Positions 2,460 through 58,695 of a DNA stretch of 64,000 bases are shown here, in pieces (the first letter of the stretch is position 1; each line of letters opens with the position of its first letter). The DNA is from Geitlerinema sp. PCC 7407. GTDB taxonomy: Bacteria > Cyanobacteriota > Cyanobacteriia > PCC-7407. The DNA lies in the NCBI RefSeq assembly GCF_000317045.1, contig NC_019703.1, positions 4,224,934-4,288,933 of the forward strand, given 5' to 3'. Made by a program: the position numbers and the translations under genes. Under the pieces are notes generated by a model. That model was not told the DNA's origin, made no database searches, and saw only the letters and a program-made list of their open reading frames with translations.

Positions 2460-4271
2460 ATGCCAAAGGGAACCCGGAAGCGGAGTGATAAACCTGCCAC
2501 TACTGAGCAAAAGCTAGCCAGCATCATCAAGTCGGCGCGAGACAAGATGCGGACGGATAAGGGGTTGAACGGAGAACTCGATCGCCTCCCCCAGCTCACC
2601 TGGATCCTTTTTCTCAAGTTGCTGGACGACTCAGAAAAACTTCTAGAGGCAGAGGCAGCTCTGTGCGGGCAGCCCTACAAGCCCGTGATCGCGGCTCCCT
2701 ACCGTTGGCGGGACTGGGCAGCCGATGAGGAGGGCATGAGCGGCGATCAGCTTCGAAATTTTATCAGTAATGACACGGTCACCCTACCCACAGGTCAGGA
2801 AGTGCAGGGGTTGCTGGCCTACCTGCGATCGCTGCAATCCAAATCAGGACGCGAACGCGCCGATGTGATCGCCAAGGTCTTTCGGGATGTTACTAACCGC
2901 ATGACCAGCGGTGCCTTACTGCGAGATGTCCTGAATCTGCTCAATCAGATTCACTTTGACAAAACCGAAGAAGTCCACATCCTCAGCCGTTTCTACGAGG
3001 GAATGCTGAAGGAAATGCGGGACGCAGCTGGCGACTCGGGGGAGTTCTATACGCCTCGTCCTGTCGTCAAATTTATGGTGGAGGTCACGGACCCGCAGCT
3101 GGGGGACATGATTCTGGATCCAGCTTGTGGGACTGGCGGCTTCCTGGTCGAGGCTTATGAGTACCTGAAGCCTCGGTGCAACACCAAGGACTGGAAGGTC
3201 TTGCAAAACAGCCTCATGGGTGGTGAAGCGAAGTCGCTCCCCTTTCTACTCGCGAACATGCACCTGCTGCTGCACGGGATCGAGTATCCCAATATTGATG
3301 ACAAAAACAGCTTGCGCTTTTCGATCGCCGAGATGGATGAGAGTGACTGGGTAGATGTCATCTTGACCAATCCTCCCTTTGGGGGTGAGGAAGAAGCCGC
3401 GATCCAGGACAACTTTCCGCCAGGGCGCAGAACCAAAGAAACAGCCTTGCTGTTTTTGCAGCTGATCATGCGGCGATCGCGCAAAGATGCCCGCAAGCCG
3501 GGACGGGCAGCCGTGGTCTTTCCCAATGGAGTCCTGTTTGGCGATGGCATCTGCGGCCGGATCAAAGAAGACTTGCTCAACAACTACAACCTGCACACCA
3601 TCGTGCGGTTGCCCAATGGCACCTTCGCGCCCTACACCAGCATCCCCACCAACCTGCTATTTTTCGACTGCTCTGGCCCCACCGAAGATGTTTGGTACTA
3701 CGAGATTCCGTTGCCGGAAGGGCGCAAGACCTTTAGCAAAACCAAGCCCATCCAGGACAGCGACTTTGACGGCTGTCGGGCTTGGTGGAAAAACCGGGAA
3801 GCCAATGAGCAGGCCTGGAAATATCCGTTTCGGGATGCCTATCACAAAGCACTCAAGGAGGCTCGATCCCACTGGGAAGCAGCCAAGACAGCGGAGGAAG
3901 CAGCCAAGAGTTTGGGCCAAGCAGCTCAGCAACTAGAGGAGAAAATCAAGAATCTGGAGGCGCAGATTTTAGACTTTACTCCCGCGAAGGAAGCAAAAGA
4001 GCTTAAGGCACAGGTACAGACGCTTAAGGCTGAGGGGAAGTCTCTGCAAGCGCAAGAGCAAGAAAAGCGGGAACTGGCTAAGGATAGTCAGGTCAAGGGA
4101 GATGGGATTTATTGGGCGGTGTACAACCTCGATCAGAAGAATCCCAATAGTCAGAATGAGTTTGAGCACTTGCCCCCTGAGCAGCTGCTCGCAGATATCG
4201 CCAAGAAGGATCAGCGGGTAGCGGAATTGATGGCTGAGATTAAAGAAGTATTGGCGACCAGAAAGCAATGA
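2460..4271 (+). CDS. hsdM: Type I restriction-modification, M (N6-adenine methyltransferase) subunit
   Basis: This is the modification subunit, which transfers a methyl group from S-adenosylmethionine to adenine N6 at the site read by HsdS. In the 603 residues, the SAM-binding motif DPACGTGGF lies near residue 220 and the catalytic NPPF motif near 303. The N-terminal region resembles HsdM_N. Residues about 465-545 are rich in A, E, K and Q and likely form a coiled coil, a known contact surface for HsdS. Its stop overlaps the start of hsdS by 4 bases (ATGA), so the two are probably translationally coupled. The gene is intact. Confidence 0.96.
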   Translation: MPKGTRKRSDKPATTEQKLASIIKSARDKMRTDKGLNGELDRLPQLTWILFLKLLDDSEKLLEAEAALCGQPYKPVIAAPYRWRDWAADEEGMSGDQLRNFISNDTVTLPTGQEVQGLLAYLRSLQSKSGRERADVIAKVFRDVTNRMTSGALLRDVLNLLNQIHFDKTEEVHILSRFYEGMLKEMRDAAGDSGEFYTPRPVVKFMVEVTDPQLGDMILDPACGTGGFLVEAYEYLKPRCNTKDWKVLQNSLMGGEAKSLPFLLANMHLLLHGIEYPNIDDKNSLRFSIAEMDESDWVDVILTNPPFGGEEEAAIQDNFPPGRRTKETALLFLQLIMRRSRKDARKPGRAAVVFPNGVLFGDGICGRIKEDLLNNYNLHTIVRLPNGTFAPYTSIPTNLLFFDCSGPTEDVWYYEIPLPEGRKTFSKTKPIQDSDFDGCRAWWKNREANEQAWKYPFRDAYHKALKEARSHWEAAKTAEEAAKSLGQAAQQLEEKIKNLEAQILDFTPAKEAKELKAQVQTLKAEGKSLQAQEQEKRELAKDSQVKGDGIYWAVYNLDQKNPNSQNEFEHLPPEQLLADIAKKDQRVAELMAEIKEVLATRKQ

Positions 4272-44524: not shown

Positions 44525-45400
44525 ATGACTTCCCCCCCGATTCAGTGGTACCCCGGCCACATTGCCAAGGCCGAAAAGGCCCTCACCGAACAGCTCAAGC
44601 GGGTGGATGTGGTGCTGGAGGTGCGCGACGCGCGGATTCCGCTCTCGACCCATCACCCCCAGGTTCCTCAGTGGGTCGGCTCAAAGGGGCGCGTCCTGGT
44701 GCTCAATCGTGAGGATATGATTCCGCCGGTGGCGCAGCAGGCCTGGACGGACTGGTTCACGGCGGCGGGGGAGGTGCCTTGTTTTACGAATGCTCAGCAG
44801 GGCAAGGGAATCCAAGCAGTCTCCCAAGCGGTGCAGGAGGTGGGGGCGCACGTCAATGAGCGTCGTCGCGATCGCGGAATGTTGCCGCGGCCCATCCGGG
44901 CCGTGGTGATCGGCTTTCCCAATGTGGGCAAGTCGGCGCTGATCAACCGCTTGCTCAAGAAGCGGGTGGTGGAAAGCGCCCGCCGACCGGGGGTGACGCG
45001 GCAGCTGCGCTGGGTGCGCATTTCCGATCAAATTGAGTTGCTGGACGCGCCGGGGGTGCTGCCCTCGCGGCTCAATGACCAAGCAGCAGCCCTCAAGCTG
45101 GCGATCTGCGACGACATTGGCGAGGCGTCCTACGACAATCAGCGGGTTGCAGCGGCCCTGATCGAGATGCTGAAGGAGTTGCAGCAGTCAGCGCCCAAGT
45201 TTGTGAGCGGGTCGCCTTTACAGGAGCGCTACAGCCTTGATCCGAACTCGTGCACTGGCGAAGATTATCTGGCGCGGGTGGCGGAGCAGGCTCGATTCCA
45301 GAACGATGTCGAGCGCGTGGCGCGGCAGGTTCTGCACGATTTTCGCAAGGGGCTGATGGGCGCGATCGCCCTCGAAGTTCCGCCAGCAGTAGACCCCTGA
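44525..45400 (+). CDS. rbgA: Ribosome biogenesis GTPase RbgA/YlqF
   Basis: RbgA matures the large ribosomal subunit. The 291-residue protein shows circularly permuted GTPase motifs: G4 as NRED (61-64, in place of NKxD), then G1 GFPNVGKSALINRL near 133 and G3 DAPGVLPS near 180. The start IQWYPGHIAKAEKAL matches the family. The C-terminal helical RNA-binding domain follows. It faces the phycocyanin operon end across about 200 bases. Confidence 0.95.
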   Translation: MTSPPIQWYPGHIAKAEKALTEQLKRVDVVLEVRDARIPLSTHHPQVPQWVGSKGRVLVLNREDMIPPVAQQAWTDWFTAAGEVPCFTNAQQGKGIQAVSQAVQEVGAHVNERRRDRGMLPRPIRAVVIGFPNVGKSALINRLLKKRVVESARRPGVTRQLRWVRISDQIELLDAPGVLPSRLNDQAAALKLAICDDIGEASYDNQRVAAALIEMLKELQQSAPKFVSGSPLQERYSLDPNSCTGEDYLARVAEQARFQNDVERVARQVLHDFRKGLMGAIALEVPPAVDP

Positions 45401-45601
45401 TGGACTAGCAGATCGGCGCGTTGATACAGCGCTTTAAGACAAGGCGTCAGCAATTTGGGATCTATTGGGCGTCTTTGGACACAAAAGTGGGCCTAGCGCT
45501 TGAATCTCAACCACACCAAGGGCGATCGCCCCAGCGCCATTGAGTTTTCAAGATCTAGGCCCCAATTGCCTTAATGGCAAAAAATCGTCCGCAGCCTGGA
45601 C

Positions 45602-46354
45602 CTATCGACGAGGCACCTTGTTCAGATAGTCCACATCAAAGGCGGAGAAGCGCTGAGCGTAGTTGCCCTTGGGCGCGATCGCCGCTGCCACAGCCCGGAA
45701 CTTGCGAGGATCGCCCTCGGCCAGACGACGGTCCTGGAACTTGCGGGTGTAGAACTTCTCCAGGGTGATCCGCCAGTCGGTCTTCGCCGTACCGGCCACT
45801 TCCTGGTAGTCCACGCCGTAGCGAGGCGTCACCAGGTTGAAGGGGCGAGCCTCCATCCGACGACGCTGGTAAGGCACCGTCCAGTCGCCAAAGGCCTGGT
45901 TGTATTCTTCGCTGTCCACCAGCGCATCCACAAAGCCGTGGAAGCCTGCGGTGCCGATCTTGATGGACCAAGAGATTTTCTCCTCTTGGTTGTACGCATC
46001 GCGTCCCAAGACACGGCGCAGGCAGAGCTCAACCAAACGGTAGTTATCGTTGACGCCCACAACCAGCTTGTAGAAACGCTCAGACTTGAGCAGGCCGCGG
46101 ATGAAGTCGCGCACCGAGATCGAACCGTTGGCGAGCTGGGTTTCCAGGGTCACCTGACGGTTGAAGCGCAGCGTTTCATGCTCGCTGAAAATTTGGCGGT
46201 AGGCTGCCCAAACAAGAGCCTTCATCTCCATGGCAGAAGAAACATCTTCGACCCGATAGATGTAAGGCGTATCTTCGTTTTGATCGAGTTTTCCGAAGCT
46301 GGAAACCCGGTGATTCTGAGTTGATGGTTTATAAGCAAGCAAGGGCAGTGCCAT
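45602..46354 (-). CDS. cpcG: Phycobilisome rod-core linker CpcG (third copy)
   Basis: CpcG joins phycocyanin rods to the allophycocyanin core. The 250-residue protein is mainly a linker domain (about 20-190, with [20 protein letters not shown] and [16 protein letters not shown]). The C-terminal part contacts the core (here ending [10 protein letters not shown]). No C-terminal membrane helix is present, so it is not CpcL. It is the most diverged and last of three tandem copies; about 200 bases separate it from the second. Confidence 0.93.
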
Positions 46355-46553
46355 GCTGAGATCTCCCTTCCGTAACTATCTAGATGGTCAAAAAGTGGAG
46401 CTACAAACTGGCGGTCAAAACAGACCAATGGACGCAGGGGTGATGCTGAGTTGACGCGCTTTGGGTCTATTATCCCGTGTCTTGTCCCTCAGAACTGCCT
46501 TCCATGGGCGATTTGACTCCCCAAGGCCCCAAACTTTGGCAAGGGCGATGGAC

Positions 46554-47297
46554 CTAGCGCACGGGGAAGCTGGCCGAGGGGCTGATGGAGGCAGGAGTTC
46601 CCGTCACTTGGGCATCGCGCGTCATGTCTGGAATGCGAATGTTGGCGGTGTTCACAGACACGAAATTCATGGGGGTGACGCGCACTTCGCGAGCCATGGC
46701 CCGGAAGTTGTTGATGTCGCCCCACTTGTAGCGCTGGTCTTCGAGGCGATCGCGCCAGTAGTCGGCGTAGCGCGGCGTTACCAGGTTGAAGGGGCGATCT
46801 TTATAGCGCCGACGCTGGAACGGCACGATGTTTTCGCCAAAGTTTTCTTGGTATTCGCCGCTATTGATCAGGGCATCAATAAAGGCATCAAATCCGTGGG
46901 TGGCGATTTTGATCGACCAAGAAATTTCTTCGTCTTTGCTATAGGGAGCCCGGCCCAGCAAGCGCTTGAGGGTCAGCTCGACGATGCGATAGTTGGAGTT
47001 GGTTTCGACGACTAGCTTGCGATAGACGTCGGATTTGGCCAAGCCCCGAATGAAGTCCCGCACCGTGATGGAGCGGTTCTTGAGCTGGGTTTCCAGGGTG
47101 ACCTGGCGGTGGCTGCGCAGGGTCTCATGCTCGCTGAACACCTGACGATAGGCCGCCCAGACCAAGGCCTGAAATTCGCCATCGGAGGTGGCGTTTTCGA
47201 TGCGATAGGGCCGGGGAGACTCCTCGCTGGGGATTTCAAAGCCAGCAACGCGCTGATTTTGGGTCGAGGGCCGGTAGTCAAGAAGGGGAATTGCCAT
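46554..47297 (-). CDS. cpcG: Phycobilisome rod-core linker CpcG (second copy)
   Basis: The roughly 247-residue linker starts MAIPLLDYRPSTQNQRV and has the same linker domain as its neighbours ([20 protein letters not shown]). A distinct C-terminus includes IRIPDMTRDAQVTG. It carries no membrane helix. I placed the start at ATG 47297 by alignment with the neighbours; an upstream in-frame codon at 47381 adds unrelated sequence. Different CpcG copies often build different phycobilisome forms. Confidence 0.93.
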   Translation of the reverse strand: MAIPLLDYRPSTQNQRVAGFEIPSEESPRPYRIENATSDGEFQALVWAAYRQVFSEHETLRSHRQVTLETQLKNRSITVRDFIRGLAKSDVYRKLVVETNSNYRIVELTLKRLLGRAPYSKDEEISWSIKIATHGFDAFIDALINSGEYQENFGENIVPFQRRRYKDRPFNLVTPRYADYWRDRLEDQRYKWGDINNFRAMAREVRVTPMNFVSVNTANIRIPDMTRDAQVTGTPASISPSASFPVR

Positions 47298-52851: not shown

Positions 52852-53442
52852 GGAATCTTCTCCTAGTTACTTGGTTGTGCGTGACTTCGAGTTGAAGGCT
52901 GTTGCCTGAGCAGCGAAAGCTGTTCAGAAGCTTGGAGGTAAACTTCAGGCCACAACCCATAGGCTACCGTTGACTTTTTCTGTTCTCTACTCATTGCCAG
53001 CCCCGAGGGCAAGTCACGAGAGCAATGATTAAGAAATCTAAGAAATCTGAGAAAATTTCTGATTTGTATGAGAGACCGCAAAAAGCCTTAAACCTATGTC
53101 TTGCTTAAACTTTGCCTGCTGTTTGTACCCTCCAGGTTTTTTATACAACGCTGTCGGATGATTATTTGTTACAAGTTGTTAAGTTGCATCAAGGTGATAC
53201 GCCAGGAGACTCAAAGCCTTGTGCAGCAAGGGTTTTAGGCGAAAAAATCAACAACAGTTCGTTACAATTACAGAAGTATTTATACCCATCTTCTAAAATA
53301 AACATGAAGTTAATAGTCTTTTAATTTTTGCCAAAACCGTTCGGGAATCAGTGGTTGGTTTATCCGTAGTTCCCCCAGGGTTTCATGGGAGTTTGTTGAG
53401 AAGTGTTAAGTTTTCGCTGAGATTTTGAAGATTTAAGTTTGG
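52852..53442. promoter_or_regulatory. AT-rich leader and promoter region of the cpc operon
   Basis: This 590-base stretch has no supported gene and is much more AT-rich than the flanks, especially 53040-53440. It should contain the cpc promoter(s) and a long 5' untranslated leader, as in other cyanobacteria. I did not identify a definite box sequence. A short plus-strand frame (53112-53324) looks spurious. Confidence 0.6.
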
Positions 53443-54414
53443 TTAAGCTTGGCGTCGGCGCAGGACTTCTACGAGGGTTGTGAAGGTGTCTGGCAGGGGG
53501 GCGATCGCCTCAATCCATTGCTCTGTAAGGGGATGCTGGATTCGCAGACGCCAGGCGTGGAGCGCTTGGCCCGGGAGGTTGACGCCGACGGATCGGCCCG
53601 AGCCGTACAGCGGATCTCCGACAATGGGATGCCCCAAAAAAGTGCTGTGTACCCGGATCTGGTGCGTGCGACCGGTCTCTAATTCGAAATCAATCAGGGT
53701 GTAGTTGCCCAGACGTTCCCGGATGCGCCAGTGAGTGACGGCCCGCCGTCCTCCTTGCTCGATGGGCAGGATGGCCATTTTCTTGCGATCGACGGGGTGG
53801 CGGCCAATGGGCTGGTCTACGGTGCCTGATTCTTCGCGCGGCGCGCCATAGACCACGGCCAGATACTCGCGGCGGGCGGTTTTGGCCTGGATCTGGGCTT
53901 GCAGGTGCTGATAGGCGAGGTCCGTTTTGGCGATGACCAAGGCGCCGGTGGTTTCTTTGTCGAGGCGGTGAACGATGCCGGGGCGCTGAACGCCGCCAAT
54001 GCCGGCGAGGGAGTCGCAGTGGGCCAGGAGGGCGTGGACAAGGGTGCCTTCGCTGTGGCCCGGGGCGGGATGAACGACCATGCCGGCGGGTTTGTTGAGG
54101 ATGAGCAGGCTGTCGTCTTCGTAAAGGATGTCGAGGGGAATGGCCTCGGGCTGCAAATCAAGGGGCTCTGGGGCCGGAATGACGATTTCGATGCGATCGC
54201 CTGCTTGCAGGACGGCTTTTTTGCTGGAGCAAACTGCGCCGTTGACCGAGACTTGGCCTTGGGCGATTAGCTTTTGGATGCGCGATCGCGACAGATCGGG
54301 CACCTGCTCGGCGAGCCAGCTGTCGAGGCGCGGAGTCGAGCTGACGCCGTCGACGACTAGAATCCGGAAGTTTTCGGACGAGTCAGCAGCGAAGTCTGGG
54401 GAGGTGGGCACCAT
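53443..54414 (-). CDS. RluA-family rRNA pseudouridine synthase (RluD-like)
   Basis: This enzyme converts uridine to pseudouridine in structural RNA, likely 23S rRNA. The roughly 323-residue protein has an S4 RNA-binding domain (about 30-85, LDSWLAEQVPDLSRSRIQKL). The catalytic domain follows, with GIVHRLDKETTGALVIAKT (catalytic Asp in RLDKET) and GRTHQIRVHSTFLGHPIVGD. The start is ATG 54414 (MVPTSPDF). RluC and RluD cannot be told apart here. Confidence 0.93.
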   Translation of the reverse strand: MVPTSPDFAADSSENFRILVVDGVSSTPRLDSWLAEQVPDLSRSRIQKLIAQGQVSVNGAVCSSKKAVLQAGDRIEIVIPAPEPLDLQPEAIPLDILYEDDSLLILNKPAGMVVHPAPGHSEGTLVHALLAHCDSLAGIGGVQRPGIVHRLDKETTGALVIAKTDLAYQHLQAQIQAKTARREYLAVVYGAPREESGTVDQPIGRHPVDRKKMAILPIEQGGRRAVTHWRIRERLGNYTLIDFELETGRTHQIRVHSTFLGHPIVGDPLYGSGRSVGVNLPGQALHAWRLRIQHPLTEQWIEAIAPLPDTFTTLVEVLRRRQA

Positions 54415-54443
54415 GGCAAGCCAGAGAGCAAACGGGAGACTCT

Positions 54444-55259
54444 CTACTCTACCCAATCTTCGGCGGGAGCCCCCAGCAAAATCTGGGGTCGGCAGTGGGC
54501 AAGGGTGCTGTGGAGGTCTACGACGCTGCCAATGACGGCGATCGCCGGGGCGCTAAATCCGGTGGCTTCGACCTGGGACACGATGGTGGCCAAGGTGCCG
54601 ATGAGCTCTTCTTGCTCGGGGCGCGTGCCCCAGCGGACCAGGGCGATGGGCGTTTCGGGCGGCATCTGGGCCGTGAGCAGCTCTGCGACGATGTAGGGCA
54701 GGTTGTGGATGCCCATGTAGACAACGATGGTTTCGGAGCCGTGGGCGATCGCCTGCCAGTTCACCGCCGGCCGGTACTTGCCCGCCGACTCGTGCCCCGT
54801 CACAAAGGTCACCGAAGAGCTGTGAGAGCGATGGGTGAGGGGAATTCCGGCATAGGCCGAAGCAGCAATCCCCGCCGTAATTCCCGGCACCACTTCGACC
54901 GGCACCCCAGCCGCTACCAAATCTTCCATCTCCTCGCCGCCCCGTCCAAAGATGAAGGGATCGCCTCCTTTCAGGCGAACGACCACAGCGTGGCGCTGGG
55001 CTTGCTCGATCAGCAAGCGGGTGGTTTCTTCTTGCAAGCGGGAGTGGCGCCCGCGCCGCTTACCGGCGTCGATGAGCTCAGCAGCGGGATGGACCATGGC
55101 CAAAATGGCCGGACTCACCAGCGCGTCATAGACAACGACGTCGGCACACTCCAGCAGCGTCTTGCCTTTCACCGTCATCAGGCCCGGATCGCCGGGTCCT
55201 GCACCCACGAGATAGACTTTGCCCAAAGCAGCACGAGTTTCGACGGAAGATTCGGTCAT
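54444..55259 (-). CDS. cobA: Uroporphyrinogen-III C-methyltransferase
   Basis: CobA adds methyl groups at C2 and C7 of uroporphyrinogen III to give precorrin-2, the entry to siroheme and cobalamin. The roughly 271-residue protein has VYLVGAGPGDPGLMTVKG, DAGKRRGRHSRLQEE, VVRLKGGDPFIFGRGGEE and VVPGITAGIAASAYAGIPLT. The start is ATG 55259 (MTESSVETR). It lies next to cbiX, the chelatase of the same branch. Confidence 0.95.
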   Translation of the reverse strand: MTESSVETRAALGKVYLVGAGPGDPGLMTVKGKTLLECADVVVYDALVSPAILAMVHPAAELIDAGKRRGRHSRLQEETTRLLIEQAQRHAVVVRLKGGDPFIFGRGGEEMEDLVAAGVPVEVVPGITAGIAASAYAGIPLTHRSHSSSVTFVTGHESAGKYRPAVNWQAIAHGSETIVVYMGIHNLPYIVAELLTAQMPPETPIALVRWGTRPEQEELIGTLATIVSQVEATGFSAPAIAVIGSVVDLHSTLAHCRPQILLGAPAEDWVE

Positions 55260-55327
55260 GGAGGCCAGGAAGGAGCAATCAGCAAAACACAGGGACAAAA
55301 CGGGAGACGCGGTCTAGATTCGTCAAC

Positions 55328-56098
55328 CTAGGCCGGAACGAGGGCCAGATCCATCAGTAAATCTGCCAGATCCGGATCTGGCCCCAGGGGAGCCGCTAGG
55401 TGCAGGGCGAGGGTTGGATAATGCTGCGCCAAGGCTTGAACTTTGTCGGCGATCGCGTCAGTGGTCGTCCCCTCAAACAGAAAGTACGGCACCACGCCCA
55501 ATCGCGAATGTCCGGCTTCTATCAGACGCTGCACCTGGGCTTCAAGCTGGGGCGGCGTCATCCAGTAGGCCGCGATCGCCCCGACCTGGGTCGCGAGAGT
55601 CTCGATAGGTGCATTGGCTCCCGAGCGGCGACTGCCGTGGGCCAGCAAAATCCACGCCGCCTGGGGAAAGCGGGCTAGGCGCGATCGCACGCAGCGCACC
55701 ATCCCCGGATGGGCTCCCAAATGGGGCGTCAACACCACCTGAATGGAGCTGCCCAAACGCGTCTGGGCGATCGCCACCTCTTGGGGAATGTCGTCCATCA
55801 CGTGGGTCCCCGGCAGCAAAAACAGCGGCACTACCTGGAGCTGACGATACCCCTGCTGGGCAGCCTGCTCCCCAGCCTGCACGATTTGCTGAGCCAGAGG
55901 CAGTGGGCCGAGTTCGAGGGTAGCCGTCATCACCCCCACCTGATCTGCCGCAGCCGAAAACGGCGATCGCCACACGTGGTTTCGGGACCCTAGGCACTGG
56001 CGAAACAGATCCGCCAGGGAATTCATGGCTTGCTGGGGACGCGGATCGCGGCTGCCGTGAGACACCAGCAGATAAGCAGAATGGGTTGGGGCAAACAT
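55328..56098 (-). CDS. Sirohydrochlorin chelatase, CbiX/SirB family
   Basis: The enzyme inserts cobalt or iron into sirohydrochlorin. The roughly 256-residue protein has two tandem CbiX domains, with the expected His near the start of each (YLLVSHGSRDPRPQQAM at about 8-24, WILLAHGSRRSGANAPIE in the second half) and LFLLPGTHVMDDIP and PYFLFEGTTTDA. The start is ATG 56098. It sits between cobA and the kinase-GUN4 gene on the same strand, so the siroheme steps may be co-expressed. The metal, cobalt or iron, is not clear. Confidence 0.9.
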   Translation of the reverse strand: MFAPTHSAYLLVSHGSRDPRPQQAMNSLADLFRQCLGSRNHVWRSPFSAAADQVGVMTATLELGPLPLAQQIVQAGEQAAQQGYRQLQVVPLFLLPGTHVMDDIPQEVAIAQTRLGSSIQVVLTPHLGAHPGMVRCVRSRLARFPQAAWILLAHGSRRSGANAPIETLATQVGAIAAYWMTPPQLEAQVQRLIEAGHSRLGVVPYFLFEGTTTDAIADKVQALAQHYPTLALHLAAPLGPDPDLADLLMDLALVPA

Positions 56099-56206
56099 AG
56101 ATGCTGGGCCTTTGCAGATTTGTAAAGTATCGCCGAAGCTTAAGAAAATCTGTATCGCTCGATGCAAATCTTGGGGACGCCATCGCGGGGCGATCGCCCA
56201 CCTCTT

Positions 56207-57676
56207 CTAGCCTAGTCCGCAAGCCGTCCAGCGATCGCTCAGCCAAGCCATATGCCGCCACCAGTACGGCCCACCCACCCACTGGCGCGCAGGCAAGTGT
56301 CCCCGGGGAGCCGACGACTGAAACCGAAACAGAGCCAGGCTGCCTTGGTGAGCAGGCCAGCCCACCCGGCGACAAAAATTGCCGTAATCTTCGCCTTCCT
56401 GACGATAAATCTGCACCTGAATGCTCCAGCCAAAGCGATCGCCGCTTGCCTCGCGCCACAGCGCATCCATGAGCTGCAAATCTTCGCAGGGCAGCTGACT
56501 CACATCCTCCGCCATCAAATAGGTTTTTGGCTGCCCCAGGGACTGGCACATCAGCCGCCAGGTTTCCTCATCCGCCGCCTGCCAGCGACCCCCGTAGAGC
56601 AGCTGCACCAGCTGACCATAGTCCACCCCCGTCTCCGACACCAAAGGCGGAAACTGGCGGCGAGCCGGCGCCGATCGCGCAAACCACTGCGCCAGTCGCT
56701 GCGGCAAGGGAGCCGAAGGCGGCAGCGGCGCCAAAGCCAAGCCCGCCGCGATCGCTGGCGCAGGGGGTGGCGCAGGAGCCACGCCAGCCGGGGGGCGGGC
56801 GATCGCCTCCAGGACCGCCACCGCCGAGGGATAGCGCCGACTCACCGCGCTCTGGAGCAGCTTGTCGAGCACCTGGCCCAAGTGGTGACTCACCCGCTGA
56901 CCCGGCAGCAAGAAGTCTCGCCAAACCCAGCGATCGCTCTCTAGATCCATCATCTGAAGGGGCGGCACCTGAGTCAGCAGATGAGCGCACATCGCCCCCA
57001 AACAGTACAAATCACTTGCCGGAAACGACTGGCCCCGCAGCTGCTCCGGCGCCATATACTCCGGGCTGCCAATCACCGTGCCCACCTGATAGAGCCCCGT
57101 TTCCGACACCAGCTTCGCCACCCCAAAATCAATCAGCACCAGCCGGCCATCAGAGTTGCGGCGAATTACATTCTGGGGTTTAACATCCCGGTGAATAATA
57201 TTCCGTTCATGAATAAACTGCAGCACCGGCAGCATATCCTTCAAAACGGCCCACACCTTTTCCTCGCTGAAGACCCCTTCCGTCGCGAGCTCCTCCAGCA
57301 GCGTCGGCCCCTCCACAAACTCCTGAACCAAGTACAGCCGCTGATCCTGCTCGAAATACGCCATCAGCTTGGGAATCTGGGGATGACCGCCCAGGTCATC
57401 TAGGCGGATCGCCTCTTGCCGAAACAGCGCGATCGCCTTTTGCCAGGCCGAGCGGTTTTGCTCCGGGAACGCAAACTGCTTGATCACGCAAGGAGGCCGC
57501 GACGGCACATCTAGATCCAGCGCCAAAAACGTCCGCCCAAATCCCCCCTGTCCCAGCGGACGCAGCGGGCGATAGCGATCGCGCAATCCCAGCAGCTTCC
57601 CGCAACCCTGGCAGAATTTGCCGTCATCCGGGTTGAGAGGTTTGGGACAGGTGGGATTGAGGCAATAGATGCTCAC
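56207..57676 (-). CDS. Serine/threonine protein kinase fused to a GUN4-like domain
   Basis: The 489-residue protein has a zinc ribbon (C5, C10, C22, C25) and a Hanks-type kinase domain (about 35-300): LGQGGFG loop, K66, HRDVKPQN with D164, and DFG (183-185). A proline/alanine linker (about 300-345) follows. A C-terminal GUN4-like domain (about 350-480) has DYGQLVQLLYGGRWQAADEE, LQLMDALWREASGDRFGWSI and YGNFCRRVGW. GUN4 domains bind porphyrins and tune chlorophyll synthesis. This one lies beside cobA and cbiX, so a tetrapyrrole signal acting on a kinase is a fair inference. Substrates are unknown. Confidence 0.88.
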   Translation of the reverse strand: MSIYCLNPTCPKPLNPDDGKFCQGCGKLLGLRDRYRPLRPLGQGGFGRTFLALDLDVPSRPPCVIKQFAFPEQNRSAWQKAIALFRQEAIRLDDLGGHPQIPKLMAYFEQDQRLYLVQEFVEGPTLLEELATEGVFSEEKVWAVLKDMLPVLQFIHERNIIHRDVKPQNVIRRNSDGRLVLIDFGVAKLVSETGLYQVGTVIGSPEYMAPEQLRGQSFPASDLYCLGAMCAHLLTQVPPLQMMDLESDRWVWRDFLLPGQRVSHHLGQVLDKLLQSAVSRRYPSAVAVLEAIARPPAGVAPAPPPAPAIAAGLALAPLPPSAPLPQRLAQWFARSAPARRQFPPLVSETGVDYGQLVQLLYGGRWQAADEETWRLMCQSLGQPKTYLMAEDVSQLPCEDLQLMDALWREASGDRFGWSIQVQIYRQEGEDYGNFCRRVGWPAHQGSLALFRFQSSAPRGHLPARQWVGGPYWWRHMAWLSDRWTACGLG

Positions 57677-57691
57677 GACAAATCAGTGATG

Positions 57692-58096
57692 CTACTGCTC
57701 TTGAGCAGAGTAGGTATAAAAAGTTTCTACAGCTCCGACCGTTTCAAACTCGTAGGACGGCACCAACCCTCCAGGCAGAAACGGCAAATATCGATTGAGC
57801 GACAGCTCTGTTCGATAAAGACTGAATACAACAAAGTTCTGACGAATCGTGTTTTCAGCAATGATTTTTTGGAGCTCCCCCTGATTAGACTCTATCAAAG
57901 CGACACAGCGGTCCTGAGACATTAGGCCAAAAAGCTCAGGTATCTGTGGACACCCTTCGTCTCGTAAGTATGTGGAAAGCTGCTCTAGGGCATAGGCTTC
58001 GTACTCCTCAGGCGAAGGATTCGTCACGGCCATCGTCACACCCACCCCCGCGATCGCCAGCGCACCAAGGGATAGAGCAATTCTCAAGGGTTTCAT
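57692..58096 (-). CDS. DUF4359 small secreted or membrane-anchored protein
   Basis: The roughly 134-residue protein starts with a hydrophobic segment (LRIALSLGALAIAGVGVTMA, about 3-22) that acts as signal or anchor, and has the DUF4359 start AVTNPSPEEYEAYALEQL. Cysteines in the soluble part (RDEGCPQIP and QDRCVAL) could form a disulfide. Function is unknown. It lies 15 bases upstream of the kinase-GUN4 gene on the same strand. Start taken at 58096; 58105 is also possible. Confidence 0.8.
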   Translation of the reverse strand: MKPLRIALSLGALAIAGVGVTMAVTNPSPEEYEAYALEQLSTYLRDEGCPQIPELFGLMSQDRCVALIESNQGELQKIIAENTIRQNFVVFSLYRTELSLNRYLPFLPGGLVPSYEFETVGAVETFYTYSAQEQ

Positions 58097-58237
58097 AAAC
58101 ATCAACAGATTGCTAAAGGTAGCCTAAGAGCTCTCTCCCTAGAACCACAAGACCTAACTTTGGGTCCCCATTCAAAAAAACTCGCCTAGGGGGTAGAAAA
58201 TCCTGGGATCAGTTGCTATAATCAAAGACGCATTAAT

Positions 58238-58311
58238 GGCGAGCGTAGCCAAGTGGTTAAGGCAGCGGATTGTGGTTCCGCCATTCGGGGGTTCGAGTCC
58301 CCTCGTTCGCC
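58238..58311 (+). tRNA. tRNA-His (anticodon GTG)
   Basis: The gene has the extra 5' G (58238) that pairs with C73, a 7-bp acceptor stem (GCGAGCG/CGTTCGC), a D-loop AGCCAAGTGGTTAAGGC, anticodon GTG in GGATTGTGGTTCC, and T-loop GGTTCGAGTCC. CCA is not encoded. Confidence 0.96.
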
Positions 58312-58695
58312 CTAGATTTCAAGTCTAAGCTAGTGTTTCCTGGGAAGCTCTAAATTTCGTAGAGCTCAGGTTTCGACCAAGCAATGAGAAGCCTCAGCAG
58401 GCTCTCTCAAGTACTAGGACTACCATCAAGCAATCGTCAAAAACGATACTCCGTCCGCCAAGACAGGGTATGGTTGATCTTGCTCACAGGTCAGGCCTAG
58501 ATCCAGAACCGCGCTTTGGGGCGGCAACGGCGAGTAAACGCTGAGACTGGTTTTGTAGGCTGTCTTGCTGGCACAGCCTTTGAGGAGGCTAGCGGGCACA
58601 GAAGAAGGGAGATAGAGGCAATCTATGATTCCAAAATTGATTGCGATCGCCCCCTTCGTAAACAATGGCTTCTATTGAGGTGTCGGGGCGATCGT
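58312..58695. other. Non-coding gap after tRNA-His
   Basis: No convincing gene is seen. A 79-codon frame on the minus strand (58426-58665) has no family likeness. The last part should contain the promoter of the next gene. Confidence 0.45.

Follow-up and report, generated by a model that had tools for sequence, protein, structure and literature searches.

Proteins in which a Ser/Thr kinase carries a C-terminal GUN4 domain have been described before. A Nostoc protein of this kind was published in 2005 with a link to chlorophyll regulation (PMC1262709), several more appear in a 2007 survey (PMC2176072), and these proteins are put forward as regulators of chlorophyll synthesis. According to a 2020 study, fusions of GUN4 to kinases and other enzymes are probably tetrapyrrole sensors (PMC7159879). 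Given these three reports, neither the kinase–GUN4 fusion nor the idea that it is a tetrapyrrole sensor is new. The described members (Nostoc sp. PCC 7120 alr4949, CYA_2756, CYB_0637, and Tery_1722/1723) likewise consist of a Ser/Thr kinase and a C-terminal GUN4 domain, the make-up by which we liken them to the protein discussed here; the available sections of the alr4949-type reports do not mention sub-families, a cbiX-cobA linkage, or pocket residues (PMC1262709, PMC2176072). What is new here is a sub-family of these fusions, its conserved linkage to siroheme genes, and its altered GUN4 pocket. The open-access literature searched contains no report of the cbiX-cobA linkage or of the PSRxWxGGxxWW loop described below, and titles and abstracts for GUN4 with cbiX, or for GUN4 with siroheme and a kinase, show no such linkage.

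Two further groups are related to parts of the fusion. In the GUN4 proteins studied to date, the determinants of porphyrin binding are Phe196 and Arg214 (in Synechocystis numbering; PMC8967248), and that of bilin binding is the LxNxLR motif around Asn211 (PMC10156173). The kinases with a 4-Cys prefix (NF045510) have an N-terminal 4-Cys ribbon ahead of a Hanks-type kinase, as does the fusion, which differs from them in its C-terminal GUN4 domain and its location in a siroheme cluster.

Domain Organization of the Kinase–GUN4 Protein

The fusion gene (56207..57676, minus strand) begins with GTG and encodes 489 amino acids; it lies in the window, the 64,000-nucleotide stretch of Geitlerinema sp. 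PCC 7407 DNA that was analysed. The original prediction of a zinc ribbon, a Ser/Thr kinase, and GUN4 in one chain was confirmed by separate profiles, all on the minus strand: the 4-Cys zinc-ribbon prefix (C5, C10, C22, C25; aa 4–27; 57596..57667) matches NCBIfam NF045510 with 40.7 bits against a cut-off of 24, the kinase domain (aa 36–282; 56831..57571) matches Pfam PF00069 with an E value of 8e-39, and the GUN4 domain (aa 347–469 by profile; 56270..56638) matches PF05419 with an E value of 1.4e-31 and 110 bits against a curated cut-off of 29.2. The kinase domain contains the Hanks-type Ser/Thr signature of glycine loop, VIK lysine, HRDxKPxN (162–169), and DFG. In the full-length alignment of the sub-family, which comprises 81 sequences including the window protein, the four cysteines as well as K66, E88, H162, R163, D164, K166, P167, N169, D183, and G185 are invariant in all 81. 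With its catalytic residues intact, this part of the protein is predicted to be an active Hanks-type Ser/Thr kinase.

An AlphaFold2 model of the full-length protein, based on the 81-sequence alignment, shows two confidently predicted domains separated by a disordered linker (aa 303–341; 56654..56770, minus strand; pLDDT under 50), with a mean pLDDT of 85.8 and a pTM of 0.69. Because of this linker, the model does not fix how the kinase and GUN4 domains are placed relative to each other. Modelled alone, the GUN4 domain reached a pLDDT of 90.5 and a pTM of 0.85 and matched solved GUN4 structures with Z scores of 17–20.8, the next match falling to Z 3.2; Foldseek agrees. The predicted fold, which reaches the C-terminus, superimposes on 1Y6I with Z 20.8 and an rmsd of 2.1 over 153 residues. 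The model thus contains a GUN4 fold, and profile score and fold together place the protein among the PF05419 GUN4-domain proteins; it has the fold (Z 19.5–20.8) and a GHLP core in common with canonical GUN4 (Synechocystis sll0558, 1Y6I; Thermosynechococcus 1Z3X).

In a scan of the class, the fusion forms a distinct top group present in 34 of 390 genomes above about 160 bits, followed by a drop to 148 and below. By sequence, the gene is a member of a distinct kinase–GUN4 sub-family. A named scan returned 80 loci with flanks, and the neighbor counts given below derive from 86 non-redundant relatives. In Microcoleus vaginatus HSN003 (L070:8933-10468), kinase and GUN4 are encoded by separate ORFs of 408 and 138 aa, respectively, a split that may be real or a sequencing error.

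The genome of Geitlerinema sp. PCC 7407 (4.68 Mb, one contig) encodes three GUN4 domains: a canonical one, the kinase fusion, and a third, weaker one. The canonical GUN4 is a separate gene with the full LxNxLR and all other motifs, which leaves the kinase-fused copy free for another role. The third GUN4-like protein (L153:1913-2596) is 227 aa long, has a hydrophobic N-terminal segment, and lacks LxNxLR.

Conserved Linkage to Siroheme Genes

The same-strand gene order in the window is DUF4359, kinase–GUN4, cbiX, cobA, an rluD-type gene, and a phycobilisome gene pair. The DUF4359 gene (57692..58105, minus strand; PF14271, E value 2e-35) encodes a 137-aa protein with a hydrophobic N-terminus and ends 15 nt ahead of the kinase start. 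On the other side of the kinase, also on the minus strand, are a CbiX-family chelatase, probably a sirohydrochlorin ferrochelatase (55328..56167, likely ATG at 56098; PF01903, E value 9e-41), CobA, the uroporphyrinogen-III C-methyltransferase (54444..55298, likely ATG at 55259; TIGR01469, 320.7 bits against a cut-off of 185), and an RluD-type pseudouridine synthase (53443..54456; PF00849 plus S4) that belongs to a wider conserved gene string. The adjacency to cbiX and cobA on one strand is thus as originally described. A promoter and terminator scan of 53300–58500 returned sites no more frequent than in shuffles and is therefore uninformative on operon structure, and no NtcA box (GTAN8TAC) lies near the cluster; the two in the window are both distant and expected by chance.

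Across the 86 loci, the commonest neighbors of the kinase are cbiX (47), DUF4359 (44), cobA (41), rluD (21), Mn-catalase (17), and a Dps-type ferritin (10), and every cbiX, DUF4359, and cobA match shares the kinase strand. Among the 70 loci with 5 kb or more of sequence downstream, 41 have cbiX on the kinase strand within 5 kb of the kinase; about 40% of relatives lack cbiX beside the kinase. In 42 of 74 relatives, the gene immediately upstream of the kinase encodes DUF4359, without exception on the same strand. When mapped onto the fusion tree, linkage with cbiX-cobA is found in 42 of 71 scorable rows on well separated branches (the window lineage, three f25 genomes, UBA11371/UBA11372, Laspinema/Oscillatoria, Symploca, Microcoleus, and Nostocales), and the linkage label changes 13 times, compared to 22.5 in shuffles. 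The simplest reading is one old origin of the linkage with repeated losses, gain and loss being indistinguishable on the tree. A class-wide draw gave 9 linked loci of 15 versus none of five other kinase–GUN4 types (20 kb regions); some of the 15 come from the same species as named loci, and the control set is small.

By same-strand linkage to cbiX-cobA (41/70, 42/71, and 9/15 versus 0/5), the fusion gene belongs to a siroheme cluster. The original prediction had been staked in part on conserved gene order and, with linkage conserved across several cyanobacterial lineages, came through that half of its test. Chance proximity was considered and rejected, because cbiX and cobA rank among the top neighbors in many separated lineages and are absent at the five other kinase–GUN4 types.

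An inherited gene string could also place the kinase beside cbiX-cobA without any shared function. Genes with no siroheme role, namely rluD and the phycobilisome genes, are found within the same wider string (DUF4359-kinase-cbiX-cobA-rluD-cpcBA) in several lineages, so part of the linkage may reflect inherited order rather than shared function, and the linkage has been lost in many relatives. However, cbiX and cobA are retained near the kinase at roughly twice the frequency of rluD (47 and 41 versus 21 of 86), always on its strand, and the linkage persists where the outer flanks differ, as in L063, L071, and L105, loci that have lost the remainder of the string. We regard inherited order as an improbable explanation for the whole of the linkage.

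The adjacent cbiX-cobA pair is also common in genomes without a kinase–GUN4 fusion, and the pathway can therefore do without the kinase. DUF4359 is present in 51 of 59 relatives, mostly at other sites in the genome. In G031 (contig C18, about 44921-47080), it occurs directly upstream of cbiX-cobA with no kinase–GUN4 gene between.

Siroheme or B12

CobA acts in the siroheme as well as the B12 route, and a His-rich tail is a feature of the long, cobalt-type CbiX. The second CbiX of the Geitlerinema genome (L151:6627-7742) has a long His-rich C-terminal tail, from which we take it to be the cobalt enzyme. With that tail on the other copy, the CbiX in the window is more likely a siroheme ferrochelatase than a cobaltochelatase, judging by sequence features. 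Siroheme is used in nitrite and sulfite reduction, and siroheme proteins of the nitrite- and sulfite-reductase types are encoded elsewhere in this genome; the single match to PF13241, the siroheme dehydrogenase domain, in a scan of the genome was weak.

An Altered Ligand Loop in the Fused GUN4 Domain

Canonical GUN4s, a set of 19 chosen by the LxNxLR motif or as solved structures, keep Arg214, LxNxLR, Trp189, Phe196, and Trp198 in all cases. In contrast, the kinase-fused sub-family has Arg214, LxNxLR, and Trp189 in none of its 81 sequences, Asn211 in nine, and Phe196 in 29, among them the window protein, although single-residue positions in the loop before GHLP vary with the alignment. At the position of LxNxLR the window protein has AxQxVG. 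Thus neither feature expected of a GUN4 orthologue acting as Mg-chelatase cofactor, LxNxLR or the Phe196 and Arg214 pair, is present. The rebuilt ligand loop of the window protein, GHLPARQWVGGPYWW (aa 459–473; 56258..56302, minus strand), replaces the canonical GHLPLxNQLRG; in the sub-family this loop is typically GHLPSRxWxGGxxWW, and its first Trp (position 212) is found in 80 of 81 sequences. The Synechocystis sll1380 and Gloeobacter glr3962 paralogues have lost the bilin motif, as has the sub-family (PMC10156173). Other GUN4 paralogues that we sampled have also lost it but keep Trp189 in 23 of 36 cases, whereas the sub-family additionally lacks Trp189 and has its own PSRxWxGGxxWW loop.

The domain had been described as a porphyrin-binding GUN4. 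As stated, this does not hold, as Arg214 and LxNxLR (determinants per PMC8967248 and PMC10156173) are missing from 81 of 81 sequences, and the presence of a GUN4 domain should not be equated with porphyrin binding. Because the residues known to grip porphyrin and bilin are lost, the fused domain probably senses something other than the usual GUN4 ligands, and a conserved aromatic loop at the canonical ligand-loop site would fit either a changed ligand or a docking surface.

Nevertheless, the fused domain might still bind protoporphyrin IX, Mg-protoporphyrin, or phycocyanobilin, with the kinase reporting on the pool. The GUN4 fold is fully kept, and sensing by GUN4 fusions has been proposed in print (PMC7159879). 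Moreover, the Asn219Gly variant of Chlamydomonas GUN4 loses bilin binding but retains porphyrin binding (PMC10156173), and single Arg or Phe changes lower porphyrin affinity 2- to 12-fold without abolishing it (PMC8967248), so the loss of these residues weakens the case for tetrapyrrole binding rather than disproving it. Set against this are the uniform loss of three determinants that canonical GUN4s uniformly keep, including a Trp189 that most other paralogues have, and the published inference that paralogues without LxNxLR are unable to bind bilin (PMC10156173). On this evidence, we give a sensor of the usual ligands little credence.

Alternatively, the GUN4 domain may have no small-molecule ligand and instead act as a docking surface through which the kinase is recruited to the DUF4359 protein or a tetrapyrrole enzyme. 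This would account for lost pocket residues alongside a conserved fold and aromatic loop, DUF4359 is a conserved partner immediately upstream, and GUN4 has been found fused to many other domain types (PMC7159879). However, the conserved loop occupies the canonical ligand-loop site and is also compatible with a changed ligand; pure docking is possible, if on balance unlikely.

Proposed Role in the Siroheme Branch

How cyanobacteria apportion uroporphyrinogen III to siroheme on the one hand and to heme or chlorophyll on the other is, to our knowledge, poorly understood. With its place in a siroheme cluster and its changed GUN4 pocket, this conserved kinase is a concrete, testable candidate regulator of that split. 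The reading that we tentatively prefer, and which is close to evenly balanced, is that a predicted active kinase with a retooled GUN4 domain serves the siroheme branch from within the cluster DUF4359, kinase–GUN4, cbiX, and cobA. The GUN4 domain would be the input, reading the state of the branch from uroporphyrinogen III to siroheme, either through a different tetrapyrrole ligand (heme, or a compound of the sirohydrochlorin or precorrin-2 type) or by docking to one of the branch enzymes. The kinase would then phosphorylate a protein that adjusts how flux is shared between siroheme and heme/chlorophyll; candidate targets are CobA, CbiX, the DUF4359 protein, or something else. Of the tetrapyrrole-sensing kinase at siroheme genes first envisaged, the three-part chain, the intact kinase residues, and the linkage are retained, while the porphyrin-binding residues are not. 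A bolder version, which we consider rather unlikely, is that the PSRxWxGGxxWW loop confers a new specificity for sirohydrochlorin, precorrin-2, or siroheme; if correct, the protein would be the first known example of a kinase that senses the siroheme branch, and it would divide uroporphyrinogen III between siroheme and heme/chlorophyll.

Other Genes in the Linked Loci

In the literature searched for a function of DUF4359, the term occurs only in a paper on the iron response of Bacteroidetes. The gap between the kinase and cbiX ranges from 3 nt to 3.6 kb, and in several lineages the larger gaps contain the Dps-type ferritin and/or Mn-catalase genes (for example, L036:8649-9209 and L130:1936-2490, 2798-3514), hinting at a link to iron or peroxide. 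In the Nostocales loci L095 (12776-13807) and L121 (12278-13354), cobA and rluD are separated by an oppositely oriented DUF4388-response-regulator gene.
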